From Wenzhouxiangella sp. (lineage in GTDB: Bacteria; Pseudomonadota; Gammaproteobacteria; Xanthomonadales; Wenzhouxiangellaceae): a stretch of DNA of 34,303 nt. Made by a program: the position numbers and the translations under genes. The notes below the pieces were generated by a model. It was given only the letters and a program-made list of their open reading frames with translations, was not told where the DNA came from and ran no database searches. Below are positions 1 to 25,513 of this stretch, in pieces (positions within the stretch are counted from its first letter, which is position 1; each line of letters opens with the position of its first letter). Where the stretch lies: contig RECK01000157.1 in assembly GCA_007694055.1 (NCBI GenBank), forward strand, positions 1 through 34,303, read 5' to 3'.

Positions 1-222
1 CAGGAATTCATCACCCTTGACCACCGGCATCTGCCAGTCGGTAATGATGATCAGCACCGGTAGCTGGTTACATTGATAAGACTCGAGGATCTCCCAGGCG
101 TCGCCCGCGCTCAGCGCCAACTCGACCAGAAAGCGCGCCCCGAACAGCGACTGCAGCTGCATGTCCAGCGAATCGAGGATGGTTTCCTCGTCATCGACGC
201 AGAGAATCACACCCTCAGCCAT
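1..222 (-). CDS. Response regulator receiver domain protein (partial, cut by window edge)
   Basis: The reading frame opens at ATG 222-220 and runs off the left edge after 74 codons. It begins MAEGVILCVDDEET, the first strand and acidic pair of a receiver domain (D10, D11). The probable phospho-acceptor is D62 in IIITDWQMPVVKGDEF. The effector domain, if any, lies outside the window, so output cannot be judged. The start overlaps the stop of the upstream histidine kinase gene by 8 bp, so the two are almost certainly cotranscribed and translationally coupled. The likely role is phosphotransfer partner of that kinase. Receiver identity is secure; the rest of the protein is unknown. Confidence 0.9.
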   Translation of the reverse strand, partial: MAEGVILCVDDEETILDSLDMQLQSLFGARFLVELALSAGDAWEILESYQCNQLPVLIIITDWQMPVVKGDEFL

Positions 223-2446
223 CTTTTTTCCCCTTGATCGGCAAATGGACCCGGAATACAGACCCCGCCCCCGGCACCGATTCCACGCTAATGCGGCCAT
301 TATGCCGCTTGACGATGCGCTGCACAATCTCCAGCCCCAGGCCACTGCCTTCACCTCGCGCCTTGGTGGTGAAGAACGGCTGGTAGATCCGTTCCATGAC
401 CTCCGGCGTCATGCCGCAACCGGTATCGCTGACGGTCACCACCGCCTCGCCATCGTCCTGGCGCAGGGAAATCTCCAGCCGCCCCGAATGATCCATGGCG
501 TGCAGCGCGTTCTGGATCAGGTTGATCCAGACCTGGCCCAGCTCGTCCGGATAAGCATCGATGGGCGGGTACTCGGGCAGGTCGGCGTGGAGCTCGATCG
601 ATTGCTTGATCTGGTTGTGATACAGGGTCAGAACGGTCTCGATACTCTCATCGAGCCGGGTTGGCTCCATTTCACCGCCGGGCTGATCCTGGCGGGCGAA
701 ACTCTTGAGCGCATACACCACCTTGCGCGCTTTCTGCGATGCCACCCGGATGTTGTGCGTGGCCCGGTGTATGTGCAGACCGGCGCGCAGCTGCTCGAGA
801 ATTTCGCCAGCCTTGGGATGCGCCAGCAGGGACTCGAAATCCGCAATGTTCTGCTTGGGCAGCTGCGAGAAAAACTCCGCAGCCTGGCGACTGTCAATGC
901 CGTCGAAGCGTTCAAGCTCGCGCTGGTAGGTCATTTTCAGGGCGCGCTTTTCACGCAGGGACAAGCCGGTGGGTTCTTCGGCCAGGCGCGACAACTCGAT
1001 CATGCTGGCCCGGATCTCCGGTTCCAGGGTGGCCGAGAACTCCAGCCACGCCGGCTGGCGCTGGTAGCTCTCGGCCAGGGTTTCAATGGATGAGGTAATC
1101 GAGCCCAGCGGCGTATTGACCTCGTGCGCCACCCCGGCAACCAGCTGCCCCAGGGCGGCCAGTTTCTCGCTCTGGATCAGCTGGGCCTGGGTGGCCTTGA
1201 GCGCTTCCATCGCCTGTTCCAGCTCGGCATAGCTTTCCTGCAGACGCTGGTTACCGCTCTCCAGGCCCTGGTTGGCCTCGGCCAGTTCCGCGGTGCGTTC
1301 GGCCACGCGCTGCTCCAGCTCCTGCTGGTGGCCGCGCAGGGCCTGGATAAGATGGTTGAAGGCCTCGACCAGCTCGGCAATTTCGTGCCGGGCCGAGACC
1401 TCGATGGCCGCTGGCAGCGCATCCTCCTTGATCGTGCGCACGGTCTGGGACAATTGCCGTACCGGGTACAGCAGAATTCGGTTGGCACCGTAAACACCGG
1501 CCAGGGCCAGCACGATCGAGGCCAGCAGCACGAACAAGGTGATCGCCCGGAAGCGCTCGATGGGCTCATCGAGCTCGGCGTAGTCGATCTTGGCCAGCAG
1601 CCCCCAGTTCAGTGACGGCAGGTAGCGCCAGACGGCCAGCACCGCTTCGCCGCGATGGTCGATGAAGTCGCCGCTGCCCTGGCTGCCCGACAGCGCCGTC
1701 AGCAGCGGTTCGAAGCCGCTGCGATCAACCGTGGTGCCGATCAGTTCGGGCCGATGCCGGGTCGGCGCACTGATCAACAGCTGACCGGCCTCCAGCGTGC
1801 CGGCAACAATCTCGCCGGTGCGACCCAGGCCGGCGAAGCGGTTGACGGTCCGATTCAGCTCGCTGCGGTCGATCTGCAGCACGACATTGCCGATGATTAC
1901 ACCACCATCGAAAATGGGCGCGGCAAGAAACGCGGCGTAGTCCTCGCTGGGCGGGTACCAGGAAAAGTTTGACACCTCGGTCTGCAGCAGCGTGTTGGCC
2001 GCATCGATGGTTCTGGCCAGCTCGGTCTCCGACAGCGGCCACTGAAAGATATTCTGGCCCAGGTCCGAAGAGGCTCTGAGCGAAAAACGCACCGTACCGG
2101 TCTGGTCGAGCAGCAGCAGATCGTAATAACCCTTGTCGAGCAGGTAAGTCGACAGGAAGTCCGCCAGCCCGTCATCGGCATCGACAATGCGATCCGGCTG
2201 CCTGAGCAGATCCGGCCACTGCGGCAGCCGGGCCAGCCCGGCGGTGTCGGCGATCAGGTTGAGCACGTAGGACTCGATGCGGTGATGGGTGGCATCGGTC
2301 ACCGAGACCAGGGCCTGCGACTTCTCGGCGTGAATGGCGCGGCTGAAGATAAGGTTCGCCACCAGGTAGGCGCTCAAGACCAGCAGCAGGGCCATTACCA
2401 GAAAGATGCTCCCCAGTTCGGTAGAAATGGAGCGCAAGCGAATCAA
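215..2446 (-). CDS. Membrane sensor histidine kinase (periplasmic sensor, HAMP, HisKA, HATPase)
   Basis: This is an inner-membrane histidine kinase of about 743 residues. It has an N-terminal membrane helix, a periplasmic region of about 270 residues resembling a double-Cache sensor, a second helix (LFVLLASIVLALAGVYG), HAMP, a coiled coil, and an H-box (GVAHEVNTPLGS) near residue 450. The ATPase domain has an N-box (NLIQNALHAM), DTGCGM and GSGLGLEIV. About 100 residues separate the H-box helix from the second DHp helix (HNIRVASQKARKVV), much longer than usual. I chose the TTG start at 2446. It follows AGAGGAG by 8 nt and overlaps the upstream TGA as TTGA. A GTG at 2479 would add 11 residues but has no such signal. 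It lies between a binding-protein gene and a receiver gene, so it probably senses the ligand of that protein. Confidence 0.9.
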   Translation of the reverse strand: MIRLRSISTELGSIFLVMALLLVLSAYLVANLIFSRAIHAEKSQALVSVTDATHHRIESYVLNLIADTAGLARLPQWPDLLRQPDRIVDADDGLADFLSTYLLDKGYYDLLLLDQTGTVRFSLRASSDLGQNIFQWPLSETELARTIDAANTLLQTEVSNFSWYPPSEDYAAFLAAPIFDGGVIIGNVVLQIDRSELNRTVNRFAGLGRTGEIVAGTLEAGQLLISAPTRHRPELIGTTVDRSGFEPLLTALSGSQGSGDFIDHRGEAVLAVWRYLPSLNWGLLAKIDYAELDEPIERFRAITLFVLLASIVLALAGVYGANRILLYPVRQLSQTVRTIKEDALPAAIEVSARHEIAELVEAFNHLIQALRGHQQELEQRVAERTAELAEANQGLESGNQRLQESYAELEQAMEALKATQAQLIQSEKLAALGQLVAGVAHEVNTPLGSITSSIETLAESYQRQPAWLEFSATLEPEIRASMIELSRLAEEPTGLSLREKRALKMTYQRELERFDGIDSRQAAEFFSQLPKQNIADFESLLAHPKAGEILEQLRAGLHIHRATHNIRVASQKARKVVYALKSFARQDQPGGEMEPTRLDESIETVLTLYHNQIKQSIELHADLPEYPPIDAYPDELGQVWINLIQNALHAMDHSGRLEISLRQDDGEAVVTVSDTGCGMTPEVMERIYQPFFTTKARGEGSGLGLEIVQRIVKRHNGRISVESVPGAGSVFRVHLPIKGKKDG

Positions 2447-3714
2447 GACCCCAACTCCTCTAGACCCGGGTTCGCCCACTGCCCGCCCCAGCCGCGCTGC
2501 ATGTCATCGAGGAACTGCTGCCATTCCTGGATCGAGCGATAGGGCGGGTACGGCAGCGGCCGCACCGGCTTGGGCGTTTCCCAGACGATGTCGAACTGAC
2601 CGTCGGCGCGAATACGACCGATACGAACCGATTTCCACAGGTGCTGGCTGGTCGGCTCCACGCTGATCGGGCCGTGCGGTGCCGCCAGGCTCAGGCTGGC
2701 CAGGCTGTTGCGCACCGCAACGGGTGCGGTGCTGCCAGCCAGCTCGACCGCCGCGGCCCACAGCTTCACGCCGTTGAACGCAGCCTCCATGGGGTCGGTC
2801 AGTACCCGATCGTCCCCGTAGCGGGCCCGGAAGGCGGCGACGAAATCGCGGTTTTCCGGGGTATCGACGCTTTGAAAGTAATTCCAGGCGGCGAAATCGC
2901 CGACAAAGGCCGCGCTGCCCATGGCCTGCAGTTCGACCTCGGCGATGCTGAAGGAGATGGTCGGAATCACATCCGGCGTAATGCCCTCGGCCCGCAGGCG
3001 CTCGAAAAAGGCAACATTGCTGTCGCCGTTCAAGGTATTGAGGATGACATCGGGGCGCGTTTCGACAATCGCGGCCACCGCCGCCTCGACCGCCGTGCTG
3101 CCCATCAGCACGTATTCTTCTCCCAGCACCTGGCCGCGCAGCGACAGGATCTGGTCACTCATGATGCGGTTGGCCGAGCGCGGAAACACATAGTCCGAGC
3201 CGACCAGGAAAAAGCGATCACCGAGGTTGTCCATCGCCCACTTCACCGCCGGAATGATCTGCTGGTTGGGCGCGGCCCCGGTGTAGACGATATTGGGTGA
3301 GGACTCCAGGCCCTCGTACTGGACCGGGTAGAACAGCAGGTGGTCGTGGCGCTCGAACACCGGCAGCACGGTCTTTCGGGATGCCGAAGTCCAGCAGCCG
3401 AAGACCACGTCGACGGCGTCGGTGACAATCAGCTCGTCGGCCAGCCGGGCAAAGCGATCCCAGTCGGAAGCGCCATCGCGAACGATCGGCTCGATACGGC
3501 GACCCAGCACCCCGCCGCGCTCATTGACCTGCTCGATGGCCAGCAAGGTGGCATCGACCACGTCGCGCTCGCTGAATGCCATGGTGCCGGACAGGGAATG
3601 CAGAACGCCGACCCGGATCGCATCCTCGCCTCGCCGATCACTGCACGCGGCCAGCCCCAGCAGGACGCCCAGCAGCAAAACGACCAGCTTGTAGATCCGA
3701 GTCTTGCCATCCAT
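2443..3714 (-). CDS. UrtA-like periplasmic solute-binding lipoprotein (Peripla_BP_5 type)
   Basis: The 423-residue protein starts with a basic stretch, a hydrophobic core and the lipobox LAAC, so it should be a lipoprotein with Cys24 as first mature residue. The fold follows branched-chain amino acid/urea/amide binding proteins: VGVLHSLSGTMAFSE near the N-terminus, then FGCWTSASRK and FYPVQYEGLESSPNIVYTGA, which resemble urea-binding UrtA. Length is normal for the family. No permease or ATPase gene is adjacent. Instead its TGA overlaps the start of a histidine kinase, which is followed by a receiver gene. I infer a sensory role, presenting a small amide, urea or amino-acid-like ligand to the kinase, as AmiC-type proteins do. 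A transport role with components elsewhere cannot be excluded. Confidence 0.85.
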   Translation of the reverse strand: MDGKTRIYKLVVLLLGVLLGLAACSDRRGEDAIRVGVLHSLSGTMAFSERDVVDATLLAIEQVNERGGVLGRRIEPIVRDGASDWDRFARLADELIVTDAVDVVFGCWTSASRKTVLPVFERHDHLLFYPVQYEGLESSPNIVYTGAAPNQQIIPAVKWAMDNLGDRFFLVGSDYVFPRSANRIMSDQILSLRGQVLGEEYVLMGSTAVEAAVAAIVETRPDVILNTLNGDSNVAFFERLRAEGITPDVIPTISFSIAEVELQAMGSAAFVGDFAAWNYFQSVDTPENRDFVAAFRARYGDDRVLTDPMEAAFNGVKLWAAAVELAGSTAPVAVRNSLASLSLAAPHGPISVEPTSQHLWKSVRIGRIRADGQFDIVWETPKPVRPLPYPPYRSIQEWQQFLDDMQRGWGGQWANPGLEELGS

Positions 3715-3781: not shown

Positions 3782-5191
3782 TCAGGCTGACCCGGAAACT
3801 GCCCGTTCCAGCTCGTCCAGCGCCGCCGGAAAGCGGTCGGCCAGGGCCTGCGGCCGGGGCAGTGCCTTGTGGCAGGAGAGAATGCCGAATTCCAGGCTGC
3901 CGGCATAGCTCTGGACGGTGATATTGAGGGCCAGTCCATGGGTGACGATGGAAATCGGAAAATACTGGCTCACCCGGGCACCGGCAAGATACAGCGGCAC
4001 GGGCGGCCCGGGCACATTGGAGATCACCAGGTTGGCCAGCGGTGGCAGCTTTTCCGACAGTTTCCCGCGCTCCCACAGCCGGCTCAGCCCGGTGGCCCAG
4101 AACGGGGCCGCCAGACCGGGAAAGTCGGTGGGGATCAGCCTGGCAAAGGCCTCGACGCGCGACTTGATCTGGGACGTGGTCGCGTGAATGCGCTCAAGCC
4201 TGCGCGCCGGATCGTCTTCATCGGTGGGCAACTCGCACTGGACCATCGATACCTGGTTGTTGGCCTTGCCATCGCCCCTGGCCCTGAGCGAGACCGGCAT
4301 CCCGGCGATCATGGCCCGGTCAGGCAGCTGGCCGCGCTGCTTGAGGGTCGTGCGCAGGACACTGGTACACAGCGCCATGACAACATCATTCAGACTCAGT
4401 CCGCGCACCTTGCCCGCCGCCTTGCAGCGCTCGAGATCGAGGCTGACCACGCCGAAACCGCGCTTGTCGCCGATCTGGGCATTGAACCGCGTACGCGGCG
4501 CCAGCATCACGCTTTCACGCAGATCGCTCAGGGTCTTGCGCGGCGCGGCAGCGCTGGAAGCGGCCAGCTTGATGGTGTCGGGAATGGAGCGCATCCAGCG
4601 CCCCAGCGTGCCGGCCGTTGCCCCCGCTGCCCGCGTAGCCAGGCGCGCACGCCCGGTCGGCCGGCTGGCTGCGATCGTGTCGGGACCGGATTCGTCGCGC
4701 TTCGGGTTGGGTTCAACATCCAGCAAGGCCCTGGCCAGCGCGATACCACCCTGGCCGTCAAGCAGGGCATGGTGAATCCGGCTGTACAGCGCAATGCGGC
4801 CATCGGCCAGGCCTTCGATCACCACCAGCTGCCAGAGCGGACGGGAGCGATCCATGGTTTCGGCATGCAGGCGGCCGGTCAACGCCATCAAGGCATTGTG
4901 CGAGCCGGGCGCGCGCAGCTTGCGCTTGACGATATGCCAATCCAGATCCAGCGGCGCATGTTCACGCCACAGCGGATGGCTCAGGCCCAGGGGCGCGGAT
5001 TCGAGCACCCGCCGCAGGGGGGCGGCAGCATTGAGGCGGTCGGCCACATGATCCCGCAAGCGCTGGTAAAAATCGCCGCCGCCCCTGGGGGGCTGCAACA
5101 ACATCAGACTGCCCACATGCATGGGCGTACCCAGGCCCTCCAGGTACAGGAAGGCCGCATCCAGACCACTGAGCGGGCTACTTTGGGGCAT
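3782..5191 (-). CDS. Wax ester synthase/diacylglycerol acyltransferase (WS/DGAT family)
   Basis: The protein has 469 residues from ATG 5191; an in-frame TTG at 5197 would add two. The catalytic motif HHxxxDG is present as HHALLDG about 140 residues in. PLWQLVVIEGL lies just before it, and SLNDVVMALC and NVPGPPVPLYLAGA follow in the C-terminal half. The opening LSGLDAAFLYLEGLGTPMHVG is typical of the family. Known members transfer acyl groups from acyl-CoA to fatty alcohols or diacylglycerol, making storage wax esters or triacylglycerol at the membrane. Its stop lies 67 bp before the binding-protein gene on the same strand, so cotranscription is possible but no functional link is obvious. On the minus strand a TATAGT sequence (5220-5225) could be a -10 box, but no good -35 is seen. 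Confidence 0.93.
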   Translation of the reverse strand: MPQSSPLSGLDAAFLYLEGLGTPMHVGSLMLLQPPRGGGDFYQRLRDHVADRLNAAAPLRRVLESAPLGLSHPLWREHAPLDLDWHIVKRKLRAPGSHNALMALTGRLHAETMDRSRPLWQLVVIEGLADGRIALYSRIHHALLDGQGGIALARALLDVEPNPKRDESGPDTIAASRPTGRARLATRAAGATAGTLGRWMRSIPDTIKLAASSAAAPRKTLSDLRESVMLAPRTRFNAQIGDKRGFGVVSLDLERCKAAGKVRGLSLNDVVMALCTSVLRTTLKQRGQLPDRAMIAGMPVSLRARGDGKANNQVSMVQCELPTDEDDPARRLERIHATTSQIKSRVEAFARLIPTDFPGLAAPFWATGLSRLWERGKLSEKLPPLANLVISNVPGPPVPLYLAGARVSQYFPISIVTHGLALNITVQSYAGSLEFGILSCHKALPRPQALADRFPAALDELERAVSGSA

Positions 5192-5339
5192 CGGCAATAG
5201 TTCTGAAGTCGGCTCGCAACTATACCCCAGGCCAGAAAGAGACTAGCCTGCCAATGGCACGCGGCCACCGAAAAGGCAGTCAGGCAATCCAGGGCCTGAG
5301 CAAGGTAGTGAATTTCCTGCGCGAATTGACCCCTGAGGT

Positions 5340-10234: not shown

Positions 10235-10942
10235 ATGAACACCCATCTGAATCATCTCAAACGCCTGGAGCGCCGCTTCAGCATGACCAGCCACGATGGC
10301 AACGGCATCAGGCCGCGCCTGTCTGCGCTGCGCGCCCGCATCGGCGAGGTCGGCAAGCGGGCCATGGATGTGGTCGTGGCCGGCGGCGCGCTGCTGGTCT
10401 TTCTGCCTTTCGGCCTGGTCATTGCGCTGCTGATCAAGCGCGATGGCGGGGCCGTTTTCTACTGGCAGGACCGCGTCGGCTACCGCGGCCGGGTCTTTCG
10501 CTTTCCCAAGTTCCGCTCCATGGTCGCCAATGCCGACGAGCTTCGCGCCAGGCTGCTGGAGAACAACGACCACATCGGCTCGGGCATCACCTTCAAGGCC
10601 GAGAACGACCCGCGCATCACGACCATCGGCCGTTTTCTTCGGCGCAGCAGCCTCGACGAGATCCCGCAGCTGTGGTCGATTCTCAAGGGCGACATGGCCC
10701 TGGTCGGGCCGCGACCGGCCCTGCCGGACGAAGTCGCGCGCTACACACCGCGCCAGCGTCGACGCCTGGAAGTCAAGCCGGGCCTGACCTGCATCTGGCA
10801 GGTCAGCGGTCGCTCACAGATCCCCTTCGAGGGCCAGGTCGCACTCGACCTCGAATATATCCGCACGCGCAGCTTTACCGGCGACCTCGTGCTGCTGCTC
10901 AAAACCGTGCCCGCCGTCCTGTTCGGCCGCGGCGCTTCCTGA
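10235..10942 (+). CDS. Initiating sugar-phosphate transferase (phosphoglycosyl transferase, bacterial sugar transferase family)
   Basis: This enzyme should begin repeat-unit synthesis by moving a sugar phosphate from a nucleotide sugar to undecaprenyl phosphate at the inner membrane. It has 235 residues, the short monotopic form without the extra N-terminal helices of WcaJ/GumD. One hydrophobic segment lies at about residues 44-67 (MDVVVAGGALLVFLPFGLVIALLI). Then come VFRFPKFRSM, the catalytic Asp-Glu dyad D141-E142 in SSLDEIPQLWSILKGDMA, LVGPRPALPDE and KPGLTCIWQVSGRS. All key residues are present, unlike in the related domain of the next gene. The start has an AAGGA ribosome-binding site. 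Promoter element copy B lies directly upstream, so this is the first gene of a long operon. Confidence 0.94.
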   Translation: MNTHLNHLKRLERRFSMTSHDGNGIRPRLSALRARIGEVGKRAMDVVVAGGALLVFLPFGLVIALLIKRDGGAVFYWQDRVGYRGRVFRFPKFRSMVANADELRARLLENNDHIGSGITFKAENDPRITTIGRFLRRSSLDEIPQLWSILKGDMALVGPRPALPDEVARYTPRQRRRLEVKPGLTCIWQVSGRSQIPFEGQVALDLEYIRTRSFTGDLVLLLKTVPAVLFGRGAS

Positions 10943-10964: not shown

Positions 10965-13643
10965 ATGAACCCAACCGATTCCAGAGCATCGGCGGCAGCG
11001 CCCCGGGCAGGCTGGCAGGACAAGACCATGCGCCTGCTCGATATCGTCCTGGCGCTGGCGGTGCTGCTGCCGGCCCTGCCGTTGCTGGCGCTGGCGCTGC
11101 CGGGTGCGAGCTGGCAGCATGAGACCTGGCGCGGGCGTCACGGCCAGCCCGTTCGACTGGCCAGCCTGAAGCTCACAGCCGGTCTTCGCGGTCGATTGCT
11201 GGGCCGCTTGCACATTGACCGGCTTCCGCTCCTGCTCAGTATTCTCAAGGGCCAACTGGCCTGGGTCGGCCCTCGGGCCGTGGCGCTGGATGAAGCGATT
11301 CCGCGCCGTCTGCGCGCCACGCGGGAGCAGGTTCGGCCGGGCCTGTTCTCGCTCTATACCTTGCGCCAGCGCACCAGCATTGACTATGACAGCGAATGGG
11401 CCTGCGATGCCGAGCAACTGGCCGAGCGCGGGCTGCGCCACGACCTGGGCATCCTTGTGCGCAACCTGCTGGCCGGACTGTATGGTCAGGCGGCAATCAC
11501 CGCCTCTGAACCCGGCCTGGTCGATACCGTTCGCGTCCACCCGCTGACGATGAACGAAACGCTGGACGCCATCGAACGTCACCGCACCACGGCCGGCTTC
11601 CTCCAGCTCGGATTCGCCAACCCCGACTGCATCAACATCGCCCGCCGCAACGCGCGCTACCGCAACGTACTCAACCAGGCCGGACTGGTCGTGCCGGACG
11701 GCATCGGCATGCGCCTGGCCGGTCGCCTGCTCAAGCGCGGTTTTCGCCAGAATGTCAACGGCACCGACCTGTTCCCGCGCCTGTGCCAGCGCCTGGCCGG
11801 CAACGGCGGTCGCCTGTTCCTGCTTGGCGGGCAACCCGGCGTGGCCGAGGCCACCGCGGACTGGGTCCGCCACAACCACCCCGACCTGACCATCGCCGGC
11901 ACCCATCACGGCTACTTCGATGCGGCCGAGGAGAAGCAGGTCATCGAGCAAATTCGCGCCAGTCGCGCCGATGTACTGCTGGTCGCCATGGGCGCCCCGC
12001 GCCAGGAACTGTGGATCCACGAGCACGCCGAAAACAGCGGGGTTCGGGTGGCCATGGGCGTGGGCGGACTTTTCGACTTCTATGCCGGCAGAATCCCGAG
12101 GGCGCCGCAGTGGCTGCGCGAAATCGGCGCCGAATGGTTGTATCGCCTTTACCAGGAACCGGGCCGCATGTGGCGCCGCTACCTGGTCGGCAACATCAGC
12201 TTCATGACCGCGGTGCTGATGCAGCGCTGGCTGGGAAGCGTGGAGCTGGCCCAGCTGGCTGGCGACGAAAGCGTCGTGTCACTGGCACCGCAGGCAAAGC
12301 GGGCCATGCTGCTGATGGACTTCCCGGCAAGCGATGCGTGGATGGCCGGGGAGGAAAGCAACCATGCGCTGCTGCCGCTGGGCGATCGGCCACTGCTCTA
12401 CCGCAGCCTGGAGTCACTGGCTGGCATGGGCTGCCAGGAGGTTCGTATTCTGGCCAGCCACGGACTGGGTCGCATCCGCGAGGAAGTGGGCACCGGGGCG
12501 CGCTGGGGCATGGCCGTCACGGTCGAAGCGGTTCGCGGTTGCGCCGATGCCCGCAAGCGCATCGAGCGCACAAAGCTGGGTGATGATGAATCGATCTGGG
12601 TGGTCCGGGCCGATCACTGGCTACCCGCGCAGGCCATCAGAGGCGGCGACAAGAACGCGGTCTGGGTGTATCTCGACGACACCCACAGCCTGCAGTGGAC
12701 TGGCTGGGCCCTGATCGGCATGTCGGTACGCCGAGAGTTCCTGGCCGCGCTTGACCGCAACAAGCTGACCCTGCATCGCCTGCCCGAGCACCTGGACCGC
12801 ATCGGCGCCCAGGCTCCGCTGCGATTCGACCAGCCCCACTCGGTACTGGAAGGTCAGCGCCAGTGGCTGGGCCGCACAAGCGATGCCTATGACTTGCACA
12901 GGGAGACCGCACCCGGCATCCGGATTGCCGCCACCGCCCGGGTGGCACCGGGGGCACGCCTGATCGCGCCGCTGGAAATCGGCGCGAACAGCATCGTGGG
13001 AAGCGAGGCAAGTCTTGGCCCCAATGTGGTCATCGGCAGCGATTGCCGGATCGAGGGCGACGTCGAAATTCGCGACAGCCTGGTCGCCGACCAGGTCGCG
13101 CTGCGCGGTCCGGCACAGCTGGAGCAGGCCATTGCAACCCGCGCTGGCCTGCTCAACATCGCCCATGCGGTCTGGCTTCCGGCCAGGATCACCGGCGACC
13201 TGTTGCGCTCGACCCGACCCGCGCTGCCCCGCCTGCGAATCGGCATCGGCGAACGTCTGCTTGCCCTGGTGATACTGGTCGTCAGCATCGTTCCCGCCGT
13301 GCTGCTGCGCAGCCTGGGTAAAGGTGGTGATTTCTCGCAGCGTGTCTTGCCCGGATTGTCGACGGTCATTGCCGGCCGCCTGGCGTTGGTCGGGGTTGGC
13401 GAGGACCACGACCTGCCCGATTCCATTACCGGCGCTGGCTGGCGGGAGGCCCTGGCGGAAGCACCCCGGGGCCTGGTTCGCCCCCGTGACGCGCTGGGCC
13501 TTGAGGATCCCGAGTCTGCTGCCTGGGCCGATGTTCACTGGCTGGTCCAGCCGACCTGGCGCGAGCGGCTGCGCCTGCTGCGCGGCTACTTCGTCCCGCC
13601 CGGTAGCCAGCTTGTCACAGTTCGGCCACAGTCCGCGGCCTGA
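10965..13643 (+). CDS. Fusion: degenerate sugar transferase + WecG/TagA/CpsF glycosyltransferase + nucleotidyltransferase-like + beta-helix + second sugar-transferase-like end
   Basis: The 892-residue protein contains several units. Residues about 20-175 resemble the sugar-transferase family (MRLLDIVLALAVLLP, LLLSILKGQLAWVGPRA), but the catalytic Asp-Glu is D85-R86 and much of the loop is missing. Residues about 188-425 are a complete WecG/TagA/CpsF glycosyltransferase (VPDGIGMRLAG, NGTDLF, AMGAPRQELWI, GVGGLFDFYAGRIPRAPQW), probably the one active domain. Residues about 437-600 resemble a sugar nucleotidyltransferase but lack the GxGTRL loop. Residues about 650-740 are hexapeptide repeats (IGANSIVGSEASLGPNVVIG). 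Residues about 758-890 hold a hydrophobic segment and LPGLSTVIAGRLALVGVG, echoing the sugar-transferase core again. GAGGA precedes ATG 10965. A role as the second transferase and as a scaffold for the others is an inference. Confidence 0.88.
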   Translation: MNPTDSRASAAAPRAGWQDKTMRLLDIVLALAVLLPALPLLALALPGASWQHETWRGRHGQPVRLASLKLTAGLRGRLLGRLHIDRLPLLLSILKGQLAWVGPRAVALDEAIPRRLRATREQVRPGLFSLYTLRQRTSIDYDSEWACDAEQLAERGLRHDLGILVRNLLAGLYGQAAITASEPGLVDTVRVHPLTMNETLDAIERHRTTAGFLQLGFANPDCINIARRNARYRNVLNQAGLVVPDGIGMRLAGRLLKRGFRQNVNGTDLFPRLCQRLAGNGGRLFLLGGQPGVAEATADWVRHNHPDLTIAGTHHGYFDAAEEKQVIEQIRASRADVLLVAMGAPRQELWIHEHAENSGVRVAMGVGGLFDFYAGRIPRAPQWLREIGAEWLYRLYQEPGRMWRRYLVGNISFMTAVLMQRWLGSVELAQLAGDESVVSLAPQAKRAMLLMDFPASDAWMAGEESNHALLPLGDRPLLYRSLESLAGMGCQEVRILASHGLGRIREEVGTGARWGMAVTVEAVRGCADARKRIERTKLGDDESIWVVRADHWLPAQAIRGGDKNAVWVYLDDTHSLQWTGWALIGMSVRREFLAALDRNKLTLHRLPEHLDRIGAQAPLRFDQPHSVLEGQRQWLGRTSDAYDLHRETAPGIRIAATARVAPGARLIAPLEIGANSIVGSEASLGPNVVIGSDCRIEGDVEIRDSLVADQVALRGPAQLEQAIATRAGLLNIAHAVWLPARITGDLLRSTRPALPRLRIGIGERLLALVILVVSIVPAVLLRSLGKGGDFSQRVLPGLSTVIAGRLALVGVGEDHDLPDSITGAGWREALAEAPRGLVRPRDALGLEDPESAAWADVHWLVQPTWRERLRLLRGYFVPPGSQLVTVRPQSAA

Positions 13644-13698: not shown

Positions 13699-14034
13699 AT
13701 GTCTATCGAAACCCGGGTCGACGAACATTGCATCGTCGCCAAAGCCACTACCAACAGCATCGATGCCAGCAACGCTTCCGCGTTTCGCACCGCAATGCGG
13801 GCTGTGATCGAAAACCACGACCGTATCGTTATCGATCTTGGCGATGTCGAGTTCATCGACAGTGCCGGTATTGGCACCCTGATTGCGTGCCTGCGTGCCA
13901 GCGGCGAGCGCCAGGGTCAACTGCGCCTGTGCAGCCTCAACCGCCCGGTACAGGCCCTGTTCGAACTGATGCGCATGCACCGTATCTTCGAGGTTCACAG
14001 CGACAGCATCTCGGCCAGGGCATCCATGGCATGA
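13699..14034 (+). CDS. STAS-domain protein (anti-sigma factor antagonist-like)
   Basis: The 111-residue single-domain protein has the STAS core IVIDLGDVEFIDSAGIGTLIACLRA. Ser55 in DSAGIG sits where SpoIIAA/RsbV-type proteins are phosphorylated. A strong ribosome-binding site (AGGAG) lies 6 nt before ATG 13699, stronger than for neighbouring genes, suggesting high output. The 55-bp gap before it shows no promoter element of the shared type. Its stop overlaps the next start as ATGA. In known systems such proteins switch between a kinase-bound state and a target-bound state depending on Ser phosphorylation. The PP2C/HATPase protein at 22847 is the obvious partner. The target could be a sigma regulator or a polysaccharide enzyme in this operon; sequence alone does not decide. 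Confidence 0.92.
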   Translation: MSIETRVDEHCIVAKATTNSIDASNASAFRTAMRAVIENHDRIVIDLGDVEFIDSAGIGTLIACLRASGERQGQLRLCSLNRPVQALFELMRMHRIFEVHSDSISARASMA

Positions 14035-15044
14035 AAGCCCTGCTCCTGGCCACGCCGCCGGTCGCTCCACTGGACCGATTCGCCCGCGGCGCAATGCTCC
14101 GCCTCGGTGAGGTACCGATCCTGGAAATCCAGGTCGACCTGCTCCGGCAGCACGGCGTCAGCGACGTGCTCCTTGGCCTGGGCCAGGGCGGCGAGGCAAT
14201 CGCAGACCATTTCGGCGATGGGCGTCGATTCGGCGTGCGCATGGCCAGCCTGTGGAGCCGCCGCGCCGCGTTCACGATCGCCGACCTGCGCACGGCCCGC
14301 AGCTTTCTCGATGACAGCTTCCTGCTGCTGTCGGCCAACGCCCTGGTCGCGACCGATTTTGACAGCCTGCTGGCCGAGCATCATCGCGCCTGCGCCCACG
14401 CCACCATCGTGCGCCCCGGCACGGGTCCAGACCCGGCTGACATCAACCTGATGCTGATCGAGCCGGCAGCCCTGACCCGCTTGCCGGCCGCCACCCCCCT
14501 GGCCGATATCCGGTTCCTGGCAAGCACACTGGGCGATCATGGCGCGATCGTGCATCGGGCCTGCTTGCCGTTGACAGGGCACCCGGTCATGACACCCGCT
14601 CAATACCTGGACATGCACTGGCAATGCCTGGCCCAGGCATGGCCGGGTGGCGCTCCCCACGGCCAGGTTCACCCATCCGGCCTGCGTTGCGGCATCAATG
14701 TCCGAATCGACCCGCGTCGCTGCCGTATCCAGGGCCCGGTGCAGATCGACGGCGGCGCCTGCATTGAAGATGGTGCCAGCCTGCTCGGGCCCTGCCATAT
14801 TGGCGCAGGTGCCGTCATCGAAGCCGGCGCCTGCATCGAGCGCAGCGTCGTACTTGCCCATGCCCGCGTCGGTGGCCACGCCCACCTGCGCAACGCGATC
14901 ACTGACGGCCGCCACTGCCTGCTCGACGACGGCACGCGCATCGAACTCGAACACGCAGACCTCGGCTGGCTGATTGGCCTTGCCCGGCAGTCGGGCACCA
15001 GCCGTGGCGCATCGGAACAACGCTTCCTGGATCGACTGAGCTGA
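14031..15044 (+). CDS. Degenerate sugar nucleotidyltransferase-like protein with hexapeptide beta-helix
   Basis: The protein has 337 residues from ATG 14031, inside the STAS stop codon. The first 230 residues follow a GlmU/ManC-type nucleotidyltransferase fold (MLRLGEVPILEIQVDLLRQHGVSDVLLGLG, DSFLLLSANALVATDF), but the N-terminal GxGTRL nucleotide loop is replaced by LLATPPVAPLDRF. Catalysis in the usual way is therefore unlikely. Residues about 235-320 are hexapeptide repeats (VRIDPRRCRIQGPVQIDGG, CHIGAGAVIEAGACIERSVVLAHARVGG). The layout matches residues 437-740 of the 892-residue fusion upstream, so the two may derive from one duplication. Coupling to the STAS gene suggests it may be the STAS target or a scaffold; that is inference. 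The frame is open further left but overlaps STAS there. Confidence 0.8.
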   Translation: MKALLLATPPVAPLDRFARGAMLRLGEVPILEIQVDLLRQHGVSDVLLGLGQGGEAIADHFGDGRRFGVRMASLWSRRAAFTIADLRTARSFLDDSFLLLSANALVATDFDSLLAEHHRACAHATIVRPGTGPDPADINLMLIEPAALTRLPAATPLADIRFLASTLGDHGAIVHRACLPLTGHPVMTPAQYLDMHWQCLAQAWPGGAPHGQVHPSGLRCGINVRIDPRRCRIQGPVQIDGGACIEDGASLLGPCHIGAGAVIEAGACIERSVVLAHARVGGHAHLRNAITDGRHCLLDDGTRIELEHADLGWLIGLARQSGTSRGASEQRFLDRLS

Positions 15045-18619: not shown

Positions 18620-20232
18620 ACCCGGCCGTACCCGCCCCCGCAGACCAGGCCGAAGTGAGTGCCGGCAACGGCCGCCTTGGCCGCAACGTGATCAGCTCGA
18701 TCGGCGCCAAGGTGCTCTACCTGGCCTCCCGCTTCGCCCTGCCCCCGGTCATCCTGGCCTCGATCAGCCTCGAGGAATACGGCCTGTGGGCCCTGGCCTT
18801 CATCCTGGTGGCCTACCTGGGCATGGGGGCTTTCGGCGTGTCCAACGTCTACGTGCGCTACGTCGCCGAATACCACGCCCAGGGCCGGACCGAGCGCATC
18901 AGTGCGCTGCTCTCCACCGGCCTGGTCCTGGTCAGCCTGTTCGCAAGCCTGGCGCTGGTGGCCCTCTGGTTCCTCCTGCCACTCATGCTGGGGTGGTTCT
19001 CGGTGCCGGCGCATTTGCAGACCACCGCGTTCATCCTGATCTACGGCACGGTGGCGGTGTTCATGCTCGACCTCAGCCTGGGCGCTTTTGTCTACGTGCT
19101 GGCTGGACTGCAGCAAATCGTGCTGCAAAACCGGATCTGGATCGCCGCCTTCCTGCTTGAAACCGTGCTGGTCATTGCCTTCATGCTCGGCGGCATCGGC
19201 GTACTGGGTCTGCTCTACGCGTTCGCGCTGCGCTACGCGCTGTCGATCTCGCTGAGCGTGTGGTTCTGTTTTCGCCAGCTGCCTGGCCTGCGGCTGTCGC
19301 CGGCGCGGTTCAATCGCGACCACCTCGGGCTCTACCTGCGCTTCGGTGGCATCCTGCAGATTTCCGGGCTGCTCGGCATGTTCCTGCGCTCGGTGGAAAA
19401 ACTCATCGCCGGCCTGTTCATCAACGTCCAGGCCGTGGGACTGTTCGACGTGGCCCAGAAGTTTCCGGTCATGGCCACCTCCATTCCCTCTTCAATCAAC
19501 GCCGCCTACCTGCCTGCGGTCACCGAGATGCATGTGCGCGGACAGCACGGAGAATTTGCCCGCCTGTACCTGGCCAGCGCGCGCCAGATCAACCTGCTCA
19601 CCGGCTTCATCATGGGCTTCATGGCAGCCTTTGCCGCGCCCTTGCTGACAGCCTGGCTGGGGCCAGACCCGGCCTTCGCCCTGGCCCCTTTCATCCTCGC
19701 CTGCTTTACCCTGCCATTCCAGCTCAACGTGGTCACCGGCGCTGCCTCGAACGTGTACCGCGGCATGGCCCGACCGGCGCGCGAACTGATCTATCCGATC
19801 ACCCAGTTGATCCTGGTCGCCGTACTGGTGGCAGCCGGTTTCGCCATGCACGGCATCAGTGTGCGGGTCATCACCATCGCCGTGGCCCTGGCCATGGTGC
19901 TGAGCACCCTGGTGTATCTTGCCTGCACCAATCGCTTCCTCGGTCTCGGCCAATGGCATTTCCTGAAGCAGGTGCTGGTGCCCGGCCTGGTTCCCTACCT
20001 GACCGGTTTCGGCCTGGTCCTGGCCATCGGACCCTGGATGGGCGGCGTGGCCGATGACCGCCTGGGCAGCCTGGCCCTTGTTCTGGTCAGCGGCAGCGCC
20101 TACGTCGCCGTGCAAACGACCATCACCTGGATCATTCAGCTCGAGCCCGGCGAGCGTATCTTCATCGCCCAGCGGCTTGCGCCACTGACCCGACACTGGC
20201 CAGGCCGACAACGCCAGGAGCAAACCCAATGA
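18616..20232 (+). CDS. Wzx-like polysaccharide flippase (MOP superfamily)
   Basis: The 538-residue protein has 12 or more membrane helices spread over its length. Its opening, GRNVISSIGAKVLYLASRFALPPVILASISLEEYGLWALAF cut here into its two recognisable parts (a conserved first helix and the EEYGLWAL turn), is typical of polysaccharide flippases. Central TM helices around SGLLGMFLRSVEKLIAGLF and the charged residues within them fit proton- or sodium-linked MOP transporters. It should move undecaprenyl-linked repeat units from the cytoplasmic to the periplasmic leaflet. It overlaps genes on both sides by 4 bp (ATGA). The only doubt is substrate, which sequence does not reveal. Confidence 0.9.
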   Translation: MNPAVPAPADQAEVSAGNGRLGRNVISSIGAKVLYLASRFALPPVILASISLEEYGLWALAFILVAYLGMGAFGVSNVYVRYVAEYHAQGRTERISALLSTGLVLVSLFASLALVALWFLLPLMLGWFSVPAHLQTTAFILIYGTVAVFMLDLSLGAFVYVLAGLQQIVLQNRIWIAAFLLETVLVIAFMLGGIGVLGLLYAFALRYALSISLSVWFCFRQLPGLRLSPARFNRDHLGLYLRFGGILQISGLLGMFLRSVEKLIAGLFINVQAVGLFDVAQKFPVMATSIPSSINAAYLPAVTEMHVRGQHGEFARLYLASARQINLLTGFIMGFMAAFAAPLLTAWLGPDPAFALAPFILACFTLPFQLNVVTGAASNVYRGMARPARELIYPITQLILVAVLVAAGFAMHGISVRVITIAVALAMVLSTLVYLACTNRFLGLGQWHFLKQVLVPGLVPYLTGFGLVLAIGPWMGGVADDRLGSLALVLVSGSAYVAVQTTITWIIQLEPGERIFIAQRLAPLTRHWPGRQRQEQTQ

Positions 20233-21662
20233 GCCTGGAACCACAGGATATCCAAAGCGACTACCGCCTGGCCGACTACAAGCCACTGCTGCCGCTGGGG
20301 CCGGGCGTGCGGGCACTGATCGGCCAGATCGAGGATCATCCCTCGCTGACCCACCTGATCGACGATCTCGGTGAAGCCCACGACCTGCAACAGGCCAACG
20401 GGCAGTACGACCTGGCCATTGGCAGCGATCCAGCACTCGGGAACTGGTTGAAGCCCGGCGGCCTGCTGTGCCTGCTCGGCGATCAGCCCGTGCCGGGCGG
20501 GGAACTGCTGCCGCTGGGACGCTGGCACGCGCTTCCCGGCTGGCCATCCTTCCGCAGCCTGGTCCCCGCGAACCCGGCCGGTCACAAGGCAGCCCTGGGC
20601 GCACTGAGGCTGCTACCACAGCGCACGCCAAGCGCCGCGCTGGGACGAGTAGCACCCGGACTGGCCGCGCTGCTGCTGCCGGCAGCAGGGGTGGCGCTGT
20701 ACACCCGGGGCAAAGCACAAGGCGCCGGAGGCGAGAGCCTGCTGGCACGCGCCGATCGCGCCCTGGGTGGATCACGGCCATTCAGGCCGGACCAATGGCT
20801 GATCGTCTCCGGCCGACTCGGTCCCGGCAACCCGATCCTGGCCTTCCAGTGCAATGGCAAGGGCAAGGGCCAGCCCCGGCAACTGGTCAAGCTGGCTCGC
20901 GACCGCGGCGCTGACCACCTGGCCCACGAAGCCGGGCAGATCGCCGCGATCATCAAGGCGCTGGGCCCGGCCCTGTCCGAGCGGGTCATCGCGCCGATCG
21001 CTTCGGCCACCATCGACGGTCGTCACGCCCTGGCCTATGAGTTCGTGTCCACACAGCCTTTCCGGGGCCTGCGCTGGCGATTCCAGGGCCGCGCCGGTCT
21101 GTGCCATGCACTGACCGACTGGCTGATCCAGGTTGCGACACGAACCCGGCAGGCAGCAGGCCACGAAATCGAAAGCGCCTGCCACCTTCAACCACTGCAA
21201 CAGCTGATCGACCGCAACATCCTCCCCGGCACCTTGCAACAGGAGGCCGGGCAATCGCTGAACTGGCTGCAGCGCCGTTCCACGCTGCCCACCGTTTTCG
21301 AGCACGGCGACCTCGGCATTTACAACCTGCGCCTGCTCACCAGCAACGGCAGGAACTTCAAAGTACTGGACTGGGGCTCATCGACCTTTACCGGCATCGC
21401 CGCCGGCGACCTGCTCTACCTGCTCGGCTCGGCCCGGGCCCCGGCCCGCCTCGCCACCGCCTGCCTGCAACGCTACCTGCATGCCCTGGACCTGCCCGCG
21501 TCGTCAGCCTCGGCCCTGTGGTGGGCGTACCTGGCCCGACGCTGGGCCGAGCTGGATACCATCCGCCCTCCGCATCCCGATCAACCGGAATCCGGCGGCG
21601 GCCTGCTGCTGGCCGTTCACGCCCAGGCCAGGGCCGCGTTGGCCGGCCTGGCCCGTGACTGA
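20229..21662 (+). CDS. Kinase-like phosphotransferase (APH fold) with an N-terminal methyltransferase-like remnant
   Basis: The 477-residue protein has its recognisable part at about residues 200-420, an aminoglycoside/choline-kinase-like fold: K221 in RQLVKLARD, E234 on the next helix, the catalytic loop FEHGDLGIYNL (D361, N366) and metal-binding D381 in KVLDWGSS. All core kinase residues are present, so it may be active. The first 130 residues are unusual; NGQYDLAIGSDPALGNWLKPGG resembles the last strands of a class I methyltransferase without the SAM-binding glycine loop. It is the last gene of the core operon and overlaps the flippase gene by 4 bp. Possible roles are phosphorylating a sugar in the polymer or capping its end, as the methyltransferase-kinase WbdD does; both are inference. 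Confidence 0.72.
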   Translation: MSLEPQDIQSDYRLADYKPLLPLGPGVRALIGQIEDHPSLTHLIDDLGEAHDLQQANGQYDLAIGSDPALGNWLKPGGLLCLLGDQPVPGGELLPLGRWHALPGWPSFRSLVPANPAGHKAALGALRLLPQRTPSAALGRVAPGLAALLLPAAGVALYTRGKAQGAGGESLLARADRALGGSRPFRPDQWLIVSGRLGPGNPILAFQCNGKGKGQPRQLVKLARDRGADHLAHEAGQIAAIIKALGPALSERVIAPIASATIDGRHALAYEFVSTQPFRGLRWRFQGRAGLCHALTDWLIQVATRTRQAAGHEIESACHLQPLQQLIDRNILPGTLQQEAGQSLNWLQRRSTLPTVFEHGDLGIYNLRLLTSNGRNFKVLDWGSSTFTGIAAGDLLYLLGSARAPARLATACLQRYLHALDLPASSASALWWAYLARRWAELDTIRPPHPDQPESGGGLLLAVHAQARAALAGLARD

Positions 21663-22846: not shown

Positions 22847-25513
22847 ATGAATCTGCCCACCGCCTTTCTCGCCTTGCGCGAACGTTTCATTGCGCGTCTG
22901 CCCGAACGCCTGGAACAGATGCGCGCGCAGCGTGGCGGCCTGGACGAGACTCGCGAGTCGGCACTGAACGAAATCAAGCGTCTGGCCCACAGCCTGGTTG
23001 GTGCGGCCGGACTGCATGACATGGAACAGCTGGCCCGCGCTGCCGCCGAGCTGGAACGGCTGGCGGCGGCTGAGGCTGCCGACAGCGAACTGGACCGCGC
23101 ACTGGATCACCTGGCCGGGCTGATTACCCACCAGTCGCCACAGCCGGTGCCGCAGTCATCGCTCGGCCTCAAGCCCTGCCGCATTGCCCTGCTGTTCCAG
23201 GACCCTGAGGAAATGGCCGCACAAAGCGCGCTCTTGTCCGATGCCGGCTACCAGGTGGACACTTACACCCGGGCCAGCGCGCTTGAGGCGGCATGCGCCG
23301 CAGGACGTGCACCGGCGCTTGTCTTGATGGGCCTGCAGTTCGACGGCGACGACCAGGCCGGGCTGGACATACTCAAGCAACTGAAGCCGGGCCCGCTCAC
23401 AACCACCCCGATCATCGTGCTGTCGGCCAGTCACTCGGTCGAGCGCGGCCTGTTGGCCTATCACTCAGGGGCAACGCGGGTCCTGACCAAGCCCATTTCT
23501 CCCCAGGCCCTGTCTCGTCATATCGATGCGGCATTGTCGGCCGACGGCGAGGAGGCCCTGAATGTGCTGCTGTTGCAGGCCGGCGACGCGCCCGGGGCGG
23601 ACTGGGTTACCAGGCTCCAGAGTCTGCAAAAGCCGCGCCTGGCCACCAGGCATTGTCAGCAGGCAGGGCAGCTCTTTGACCGCCTGACCGAAGGTCGTCC
23701 GGATGCCATCGTGCTGGATCTCTCCGACCGGGACGAAAGCGAGGCCGGCGCGCTGATCGCACTGGTTCGCGACCACCCCTCGGCCAACCACGTCCCGATC
23801 ATCGGCATCGACACGCCTGCAAGCCAGCGGCGCCGCGCGCTGTGGCAGGCCGGCTGCTCTTCTGTTTTCGATGCCGACGGCTCAGCCGGCGAATTTGGCC
23901 TGATGCTGTCGACCTTGTGCAACAGGGCTCGCAGCGTGCGCCAGACCATTGATGAGGCGGCCCGCTACCGCTATGAGCATAGCCGCCAGTACCAGGCCCT
24001 GGAACACCATGCCATCATCAGCATGGCCGACGCCACGGGCACGGTTTATGAAACCTCGGCACGGTATGCCCACCTGACCGGTTTCGAGCGCACCGAGCTG
24101 ATCGGCGCCCACCTGAGCGAACAGCGCCCCGGCATGGCACCGCCGGAGTTCGACGAACAAATCATGGACCAGCTGCGCCAGGGTCGGGTCTGGCAAGGCG
24201 AATATCGTGCCCCCGGCCGCGGCAAGCAGGCGCGCTGGTTCAATGCCACGCTGGTGCCGTTCCTCGATCGCGCTGGCCAGCCCTACCGCTACATGGTCAT
24301 TCGCAGCGACATCACCGAGCGCAAGCTCGGCGAGCAGGCGCTGGTCAAGGCGCATGACCGCGAAATGCGGCTGGCCGGCCAGATCCAGGACAACCTGCTG
24401 GTACCGCCGATACCCTGGGTCGTGGGCGGCGTGCCACTGGCCTCGCGTTTCCAGGCAGCCGCCGGGGTGGCCGGCGATTTCCATGCCCTGGTCGAACTCC
24501 AGCCGGGCGTGTTCGATGTGCTGATCGGGGATGTCATGGGCAAAGGCGTGTCGGCGGCACTGGTCGGGGCCGCCTGCAAGATGGCCTTGCACCAGTGCCT
24601 GCTCGAACTGCGCGCCCGCGGTCACGGCCAGGCGCCCGGGCCGGCGGACATTGTCGGCGCACTGCACCAACAACTCAGCCAGCGCCTGATCGACCTGGAA
24701 TGCTTCGTTACCCTGGCCTATGCCCGCTTCGACCAGGCAGCCGGGACCATGACCAGCGTGGGCTGCGGTCACCCGGAAATCCTGCTTTGCGACGCAGGCC
24801 GCTCGAGGCTTGCCGGCAACCGGCATCCACCGCTGGGCACCCTGGCCGAAGAATGCTATAGCGAGACCGTCACGAACTGGCCACCGGGCAGCCTGGCCGT
24901 GCTCTACTCAGACGGACTGACCGAAACGCGGGCAGCCGACGGCAGCCTGCTGGGCGAACCCGGCCTGCAGCAGCTACTTGCCCGCCAACAGGCGATCGAC
25001 CCCAATCCCGCCGCGCTCACGGCCGCAGTCATGGCCGCAGTCGAAGCCTTTGCCGAAGGCCAGGCACCGACAGACGATCGCACCCTGATCATCGTGCACA
25101 ACCCGACCGGCGCTGAACGCCATGTCGAACTGCCGGCCGGCCTGGATTCCATTGCCCAACTGCGATCCTTCCTTGCCGAGCAGGCATTGCCCGACCTGAA
25201 AGGCGATCGGCTGGATCGCCTGGTTCTGGCCTGCGTGGAGGCTTTCAGCAATGCGGTTCGGCATGGCGCGCTCACCTCCAGGGTCGTGCAGCTGAGCTGC
25301 CACCATGAGACCGAACGCATCCGCATCGTGCTTTACTATGATGGGCCTGATCGCGCACCGCCAGAAGCCGGAGAACTGCCCGACCCGGCAGGCATGCAGG
25401 AATCCGGCTACGGCCTGGCGCTGATCAAGCAATTGTGCGATGACTGCCAATACCACCATCATGCCGGGCACAACCGGCTAACGCTGATTTTCGAAAAACT
25501 GCAATCAAGTTGA
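22847..25513 (+). CDS. Hpt-REC-REC-PAS-PP2C(SpoIIE)-HATPase partner-switch regulator
   Basis: The 888-residue protein has six modules. The Hpt domain has H48 in RLAHSLVGAAG. A first receiver (about 110-230) has lost its Asp (G162 in LVLMGLQF) but kept the Lys of LTKP. A second receiver (about 237-360) keeps D291 in IVLDLSD. PAS spans about 380-490. The RsbU/SpoIIE-type phosphatase spans about 505-750, with metal-binding motifs AGDFHAL, GDVMGKG, YSDGLTE and DDRTLI. The RsbW-like HATPase spans about 765-885, with N-box EAFSNAVRHG and GYGLALIKQL. The phosphatase and kinase-like ends are the two opposing activities of a partner switch, and the STAS protein at 13699 is the probable substrate. The Hpt and second receiver suggest input from the neighbouring histidine kinases. 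Confidence 0.92.
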   Translation: MNLPTAFLALRERFIARLPERLEQMRAQRGGLDETRESALNEIKRLAHSLVGAAGLHDMEQLARAAAELERLAAAEAADSELDRALDHLAGLITHQSPQPVPQSSLGLKPCRIALLFQDPEEMAAQSALLSDAGYQVDTYTRASALEAACAAGRAPALVLMGLQFDGDDQAGLDILKQLKPGPLTTTPIIVLSASHSVERGLLAYHSGATRVLTKPISPQALSRHIDAALSADGEEALNVLLLQAGDAPGADWVTRLQSLQKPRLATRHCQQAGQLFDRLTEGRPDAIVLDLSDRDESEAGALIALVRDHPSANHVPIIGIDTPASQRRRALWQAGCSSVFDADGSAGEFGLMLSTLCNRARSVRQTIDEAARYRYEHSRQYQALEHHAIISMADATGTVYETSARYAHLTGFERTELIGAHLSEQRPGMAPPEFDEQIMDQLRQGRVWQGEYRAPGRGKQARWFNATLVPFLDRAGQPYRYMVIRSDITERKLGEQALVKAHDREMRLAGQIQDNLLVPPIPWVVGGVPLASRFQAAAGVAGDFHALVELQPGVFDVLIGDVMGKGVSAALVGAACKMALHQCLLELRARGHGQAPGPADIVGALHQQLSQRLIDLECFVTLAYARFDQAAGTMTSVGCGHPEILLCDAGRSRLAGNRHPPLGTLAEECYSETVTNWPPGSLAVLYSDGLTETRAADGSLLGEPGLQQLLARQQAIDPNPAALTAAVMAAVEAFAEGQAPTDDRTLIIVHNPTGAERHVELPAGLDSIAQLRSFLAEQALPDLKGDRLDRLVLACVEAFSNAVRHGALTSRVVQLSCHHETERIRIVLYYDGPDRAPPEAGELPDPAGMQESGYGLALIKQLCDDCQYHHHAGHNRLTLIFEKLQSS

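Follow-up and report, generated by a model that had tools for sequence, protein, structure and literature searches.

The exopolysaccharide gene cluster considered here lies on contig RECK01000157.1 of Wenzhouxiangella sp. (NCBI GenBank assembly GCA_007694055.1), whose 34,303 nucleotides (nt) are referred to as the window. The cluster encodes Wza, a Wzc-like protein, Wzy, Wzx and several glycosyltransferases, and also a fusion protein of 892 residues in a single open reading frame (ORF). From N- to C-terminus the fusion comprises a pseudo-phosphoglycosyl transferase (pseudo-PGT) domain, a WecG/TagA/CpsF glycosyltransferase domain (GT26), a pseudo-nucleotidyltransferase (pseudo-NTase) domain, a left-handed beta-helix (LbH) and a pseudo-PGT tail (Table 1). 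An initial annotation, made from the sequence alone, had proposed this five-part composition, and the ORF, Pfam, profile comparisons, an AlphaFold2 model and relatives of the protein all bear it out. The arrangement is more than chance, given that the identical order is found in 18 further loci (19 with the window). Directly upstream, and also anticipated by the initial annotation, is an intact PGT gene, with 22 nt between its stop codon and the ATG of the fusion. Its product matches Pfam Bac_transf over model positions 1–178 of 179 (E 1.7e-62), and TIGR03025 with E 4.8e-78 at a score below the TIGR03025 cut-off.

Table 1. Features of the window, with the parts of the fusion listed beneath it and other neighbouring genes last.
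Feature	Position	Strand	Evidence
Intact monotopic PGT, dyad D141-E142	10235..10942	+	Pfam Bac_transf, DEIPQ motif
892-residue five-part fusion	10965..13643	+	Single ORF
N-terminal pseudo-PGT, residues ~15–178, dyad position D85-R86 (11217–11222)	11007..11498	+	Pfam, family profile, pLDDT
WecG/TagA/CpsF (GT26), residues ~184–423, D245 and R401 at the positions of TagA D65 and R221	11514..12233	+	Pfam, PDB, structure match
Pseudo-NTase, residues ~444–640, no GxG[T/S]R, no PKP; WTGWA at 578–582	12294..12884	+	Family profile, motif counts
LbH, residues ~646–741	12900..13187	+	Hexapep and LbH_EIF2B, both below Pfam cut-off; short-strand pattern in model
C-terminal pseudo-PGT tail, residues ~760–880, both dyad residues lost	13242..13604	+	phmmer, split-tail profiles
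STAS-domain protein, directly downstream of the fusion	13699..14034	+	Pfam STAS E 1.1e-16
Second NTase-like and LbH protein without GxGTR	14031..15044	+	TIGR03992 E 1.9e-13, NF052502 E 1e-15, both below cut-off
Large Hpt-receiver-PAS-SpoIIE-HATPase protein	22847..25513	+	

Relatives were sought at two scales. The first scans covered 43 genomes of the family and, at an E cut-off of 1e-20, overlapping lists of 299 order and 369 class genomes. No second five-part fusion was found in the 43 family genomes besides the window's own, nor, at that cut-off, any other match beyond about residues 86–435 in the order and class genomes. These scans gave 59 WecG-bearing ORFs, including 8 with a PGT-like N-terminal domain and 5 with a C-terminal active-type PGT. 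Further five-part genes (in Azonexus, Pseudohongiella, Rubrivivax, Roseateles/Paucibacter, Rhodoferax and betaproteobacteria) were reached only when a nine-sequence profile, window included, was run against one genome per species for 84,980 species. With the patterns NVNGTD[LM]F and GVGGLFDF, at least 502 relatives were found, and the best 80 of them were kept; together with 14 larger stretches, and less two duplicate contigs (L089 = L156, L092 = L165), they make up 92 loci, which were scanned with our own profiles. The window and the 84 loci having a PGT-like domain ahead of WecG, by our own rule, form the set of 85 used below. Sampling was biased towards the window sequence, so all counts describe this family and not WecG enzymes at large.

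The N-terminal domain is recognisably a PGT core. Pfam Bac_transf matched residues 76–169 (E 1e-12; 48.4 bits against a cut-off of 27), a PDB sequence search with residues 73–168 returned PGTs (8e37, 8g1n and WbaP entries), and the profile of the domain family matched the PGT profile at 99.9% in a profile-profile comparison. The site of the Asp-Glu dyad of active PGTs is held by D85-R86, confirming the replaced catalytic Glu of the initial annotation, and this loss is family-wide: the dyad occurs in none of the 85 N-terminal domains of the full alignment (window included), of which 6 have Asp at the first position and 2 have Glu at the second. In a hidden Markov model alignment the dyad position was covered in 56 N-terminal domains, none with Asp-Glu, and in 83 other domains, 79 with Asp-Glu; the 4 exceptions are tails of NTase-LbH genes, and Asp-Glu is kept in 79 of 79 PGT domains scored outside the dead classes. 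One could suppose that an altered domain works with other catalytic residues, making the fusion a true multi-enzyme, since the window domain retains D85 and the NTase family retains the Asp within its HADRLP consensus. However, the scarcity of Asp and Glu at the two dyad positions, and replacements that differ widely from member to member, are evidence against a new catalytic pair and leave this explanation very improbable. A composite active site built from both PGT-like ends was also considered and was rejected, because neither end of the window protein has the Glu and the dyad positions vary across the family.

What has been kept is as consistent as what has been lost. The most hydrophobic 19-residue segment begins at residue 27 in the N-terminal domain and at residue 766 in the tail. 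Under a permissive rule, 82 of 85 N-terminal domains and 50 of 53 tails contain such a segment, and in 81 and 49 of them, respectively, it includes a Pro; a Pro-bearing segment is also found in 77 of 80 PGT rows, duplicates included. Core columns of the PGT fold are invariant in the N-terminal domain (G147 and P172-G173, each 85/85). Ratios of non-synonymous to synonymous substitution (Ka/Ks), calculated with our own Nei-Gojobori script for 11 close pairs, 4 of them of the fused type, are 0.08–0.30 for the N-terminal pseudo-PGT and 0.03–0.13 for WecG, the pseudo-PGT evolving faster than the enzyme in 10 of the 11. In the four fused pairs the NTase gave 0.09–0.20, the LbH 0.13–0.34 and the tail 0.11–0.24. 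For the pairs tested, these ratios indicate purifying selection on the segments of the fusion, and the dead domain is clearly constrained. Lost catalytic residues are also what would be expected of ends that are decaying pseudogene remnants in this genome, but this idea is contradicted by the 18 further fused loci, by pseudoPGT-WecG proteins in eight named phyla and by the Ka/Ks values of the tested pairs, which are all well under 1, and retains next to no probability.

The central domain, described by the initial annotation as a complete WecG enzyme, stands as such. Pfam WecG matched residues 239–406 (E 1e-66), TIGR00696 scored 161.3 bits against a cut-off of 69, and the PDB sequence match to 7mpk had E 8e-44; the fold, the catalytic Asp and the C-terminal Arg that mark GT26 are all present. 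TagA and TarA structures align to residues 182–379 of the AlphaFold2 model with Z 28.3–29.2 (7mpk_B: Z 28.9, root-mean-square deviation 1.1, 198 residues aligned). D65, T37 and R221 of TagA are discussed in the available text of PMC6493773; their equivalents are Asp in 85 of 85 members, Phe in 83 of 85 and Arg in 83 of 85. At TagA chain position 83 (numbered by alignment to 7mpk and taken from no paper) Arg is replaced by Asn in 85 of 85, a count that is biased because NVNGTD served as a search pattern. The domain did not reach the equivalog cut-offs of EpsA (141.6 against 500), TarA (139.1 against 350) or WecG(ECA) (120.8 against 323). Judged by its catalytic residues, the WecG domain is apparently intact, and it and the upstream PGT would both be active.

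Downstream of WecG, the initial annotation had placed a nucleotidyltransferase-like domain without its nucleotide loop, followed by a beta-helix, and both assignments hold. In the window protein Pfam gave a weak NTP_transf_3 match (residues 466–502, E 0.0035) and a Hexapep match just under the cut-off of 27 (residues 671–703, E 6.9e-6, 26.0 bits). The NTase-LbH family profile (alignment A4, 21 sequences) matched the UTP-glucose-1-phosphate uridylyltransferase 8x7s nearly full-length with E 8.4e-34. Among the matches listed, NTase/LbH structures align to residues ~443–750 of the model with Z 18.7–23.8, including 8x7s (Z 23.8) and eIF2B and the GMPPA/GMPPB complex (Z 20–23.5). Neither the GxG[T/S]R loop nor PK[P/A] near the start was found in any of 69 NTase-like domains of sufficient length; a W-x-G-W-A-like motif occurs in 52 of 70 NTase-LbH halves. 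An NTase-LbH fold stripped of its catalytic motifs is the hallmark of the pseudo-NTase regulators of the GMPPA/eIF2B type.

Non-catalytic nucleotidyltransferase-LbH proteins are known, GlgD being one. GMPPA, according to the available text of PMC11228364, is a non-catalytic paralogue of GMPPB that can bind GDP-mannose and regulates GMPPB. By analogy, the whole fusion might be a feedback sensor, in which the pseudo-NTase binds a nucleotide sugar of the pathway and switches the PGT or WecG. The fold match to GMPPA/GMPPB and eIF2B and the W-x-G-W-A-like motif fit such a role, and regulation of a PGT by a partner has a precedent in EpsZ of Myxococcus, which is activated by a non-catalytic response regulator (accessible parts of PMC12802240). 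However, all 69 domains scored have lost both the nucleotide loop and the PKP lysine, and the sensor explanation is distinctly unlikely.

The C-terminal tail is assigned through its relatives. In the window protein Pfam found no family in residues 740–892, and a Bac_transf match was likewise absent from the four fused-type sequences scanned by Pfam (the tails of the window, L103 and L102, and the C-half of L161). However, phmmer linked the window tail to the split-gene protein L133 (2.8e-6), and Pfam scans of six split C-halves gave Bac_transf above the cut-off in five (L107, L110, L118, L151 and L165) and below it in L133. Bac_transf was detected at E 0.001 in 63 of the 67 rows of alignment A2, in which the N-terminal half is present in just 40, and therefore at least 23 of 27 split C-halves match it. 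The initial annotation had suggested searching each segment with profile methods, where unrelated folds would speak against it; besides the result for the N-terminal domain, the split-tail profile matched the PGT profile at 98.2% (WecG and NTase controls 0.1–0.2%), and the fused-tail profile matched the N-terminal pseudo-PGT at 95.6%. The Asp-Glu dyad is absent from all 53 tails of at least 110 residues. In the model, by our own reading, the tail's order of helices and strands resembles the N-terminal domain minus its beta-hairpin. The tail is thus a probable PGT-type core by way of its split-gene relatives, which were matched where the window tail itself was not, and the inactive transferase tail of the initial annotation is sustained on these terms.

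The AlphaFold2 model of the fusion, built from a 67-row family alignment, has a mean predicted local distance difference test score (pLDDT) of 87.4 across the five parts, mostly above 85 in the N-terminal pseudo-PGT. No PGT structure appeared among the best 50 matches listed by each of two structure-search programs for the whole model, which carries no weight against a PGT fold because the two large domains fill the list.

In most of the family the two halves of the fusion are separate neighbouring genes, an observation that goes beyond the initial annotation, as does the spread of the family across phyla. PseudoPGT-WecG and pseudoNTase-LbH form one gene in 19 loci, all in Beta- or Gammaproteobacteria. 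The commonest gene order is PGT, pseudoPGT-WecG and pseudoNTase-LbH(-pseudoPGT), and 55 of 66 non-fused loci have an NTase-LbH gene no more than 1400 nt downstream in the same orientation. An active PGT with intact dyad is fused C-terminally to pseudoPGT-WecG in 4 loci (L091, L156, L172 and L179), and of the 80 loci without such a fusion, 67 have a separate PGT gene on the same strand at a distance of up to 1300 nt (59 upstream, 8 downstream). PseudoPGT-WecG proteins occur in Pseudomonadota, Acidobacteriota, Myxococcota, Planctomycetota, Armatimonadota, Thermodesulfobacteriota, Gemmatimonadota and Actinomycetota, the last with a single member (L178) that has neither a PGT nor an NTase-LbH neighbour; the names Hydrogenedentes and Riflebacteria occur in record titles as well. 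Metagenome bins supply most of the records, with strains or isolates including L141 (Paucibacter/Roseateles oligotrophus CHU3), L150, L177 and L178. A remoter version of the system is found in L094, L095 and L096 (degenerate PGT-WecG, PGT, then an NTase-like protein of 289–299 residues). A tree of 93 WecG domains is consistent with the 19 five-part genes having arisen once: they need one change on the best tree, with 1–2 changes in the 5–95% bootstrap range, and a single branch separates them from the rest in 78% of 200 bootstraps. The bootstrap had yet to converge, three of the rows form long branches, and several of the deep forks are left open.

On these data, the fusion probably makes up the half of a complex dedicated to exopolysaccharide initiation that does not itself initiate; in it the dead PGT folds would anchor and dock WecG beside the PGT, and the pseudo-NTase would form a hub. 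A conserved polysaccharide-initiation scaffold is suggested because the dead parts, fused or adjacent, recur across phyla, usually beside a live PGT. In such a complex the upstream PGT would transfer the first sugar-1-phosphate onto undecaprenyl phosphate and the central WecG domain would attach the second sugar. The dead PGT folds, keeping the membrane-inserting helix, would be monotopic in the inner membrane leaflet and paired with the active PGT. Docking would hold the WecG active site by the PGT and its lipid product, and the undecaprenyl-diphosphate-linked sugar would be met where it is made. Between the anchors, the pseudo-NTase and beta-helix would serve as a hub without catalytic function; its most likely task is assembly, and it perhaps senses a nucleotide sugar or sugar phosphate. 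Precedents for parts of this scheme are the membrane activation of TagA (PMC6493773), the dimeric WbaP and PGTs fused to other functional domains (PMC10942596), the activation of the PGT EpsZ by a non-catalytic partner (PMC12802240) and the control of GMPPB by GMPPA (PMC11228364). The initial annotation had suggested that the inactive ends dock to the intact enzyme or the membrane and pass on the lipid-linked first sugar; while its observations were confirmed, this interpretation is partly supported, with docking favoured indirectly by the nearby or fused PGT genes and the Pro-bearing helix, and with the interface itself being something we infer.

A simpler explanation is that the dead PGT domains merely anchor WecG and never contact the active PGT, gene adjacency reflecting a shared pathway. 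The Pro-bearing hydrophobic helix kept in most of these domains would suffice for this, and TagA requires membrane contact for activity (PMC6493773, in its available text). However, the remaining PGT core is conserved too and Ka/Ks is low domain-wide, which is more than a mere anchor needs, and nature has fused an active PGT to the same protein in 4 loci; anchoring without contact is accordingly unlikely. A broader proposal than the docked complex is a cross-phylum metabolon, in which the PGT, two pseudo-PGTs, GT26 and pseudo-NTase assemble in the membrane as a heteromer, channelling the undecaprenyl-diphosphate-linked sugar to the second step and gating undecaprenyl phosphate use by nucleotide-sugar sensing, often with a STAS/SpoIIE switch nearby; this is a tentative and rather doubtful extension.

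Several findings weigh against the docked complex. The predictions were of single chains, and the pairing of PGT with pseudo-PGT goes beyond them: the fusion model has a predicted template modelling score (pTM) of 0.56, and domain packing is not readable from it, and the natural pseudoPGT-WecG-PGT chain of L172 (pLDDT 90.6, pTM 0.68) is also a single chain and silent on packing. Ligand binding by the pseudo-NTase is a perhaps. Fused-type tails matched the active PGT profile at only 1.2%, a failed direct match. In 17 of 70 NTase-LbH halves the tail is shorter than 110 residues or absent; a contig end truncates four of them (L115, L142, L152 and L163), and the other 13 are without the second anchor. 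The NTase half is missing in 11 of 66 loci (L091, L111, L112, L120, L134, L137, L154, L156, L170, L175 and L178), the contig of L112 running out 209 nt downstream. Finally, 13 of 80 loci have no separate PGT by the distance rule. Three of these (L118, L125 and L142) lie at contig ends, and in two (L123 and L142) a PGT ORF does exist but overlaps the start of an over-long WecG ORF.

Directly downstream of the fusion, the STAS gene overlaps by 4 nt with the gene for the second NTase-like and LbH protein. BLAST (E 1e-8) found relatives of the STAS protein in 42 of 92 loci and BLAST relatives of the SpoIIE-type protein occur in 32 of 92, both being raw counts; these two proteins probably form a partner switch. 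The second NTase-like protein has BLAST relatives in 4 of 92 loci, including L103 and L119. A kinase-fold (APH) protein is encoded at 20229–21662 (+) between Wzx and Wza, with a BLAST relative only in Pseudohongiella L103 among the 92 loci. A wax ester synthase/diacylglycerol acyltransferase gene at 3782–5197 (−) adjoins the exopolysaccharide cluster (Pfam WS_DGAT_cat E 1.3e-62), and a dCache/HAMP histidine kinase gene at 215–3714 (−) lies beside that of a periplasmic Peripla_BP_5 substrate-binding protein. Elsewhere in the same genome, contig C447 (L099 3450–6512) carries a second polysaccharide locus encoding a PGT-like protein of 462 residues and a free-standing WecG of 257 residues; this genome therefore holds both plain and scaffolded PGT/WecG pairs.

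The pairing of a PGT with a WecG-family enzyme for the first two steps is known from EpsZ-EpsA of M. xanthus. Caulobacter HfsE-HfsJ is a similar pair for the first two polysaccharide steps, and addition of the second sugar in the holdfast and promonan pathways is attributed to WecG-family enzymes (available text of PMC11340318). In contrast to the fusion, the two enzymes of each pair are, as far as is known, separate, and neither pair is known to have a pseudo-PGT or pseudo-NTase as a partner. The GT26 fold, catalytic Asp and C-terminal Arg are shared with TagA/TarA, E. coli WecG, HfsJ, PrmH and M. xanthus EpsA, whereas the Phe at the T37 position, the Asn at position 83 and the flanking dead domains set the window family apart from TagA/TarA-type enzymes. 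Bifunctional monotopic PGTs (Bi-PGTs), which join an active PGT core to another functional domain, are a recognised class, defined with reference to O'Toole et al. 2021, and WbaP is dimeric (PMC10942596, in its available text). L091, L156, L172 and L179, with their intact-dyad PGT, resemble Bi-PGTs, whereas the window fusion lacks an intact dyad in both of its PGT folds and has its intact PGT as a separate gene. Similarly, GMPPA and eIF2B gamma/epsilon share an NTase and LbH without catalytic motifs, whereas the window family joins or links these to PGT and GT26 folds. The components are thus known, and their arrangement and its conservation appear undescribed within the literature searched, which comprised titles, the starts of abstracts and some passages, with few subscription journals; a PNAS 2021 network paper may list some of the fusions.

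For annotation, the family is a warning that Bac_transf matches here, and NTP_transferase matches in the next gene, do not imply activity. To our knowledge, it is open in the field whether the first two enzymes of Wzx/Wzy pathways are physically coupled, and by what means cells curb the consumption of undecaprenyl phosphate. Ready-made constructs for testing these questions would come from this natural family, whose dead PGT folds are conserved, apparently for a non-catalytic role, and are fused to the second-step enzyme and sometimes to a live PGT.

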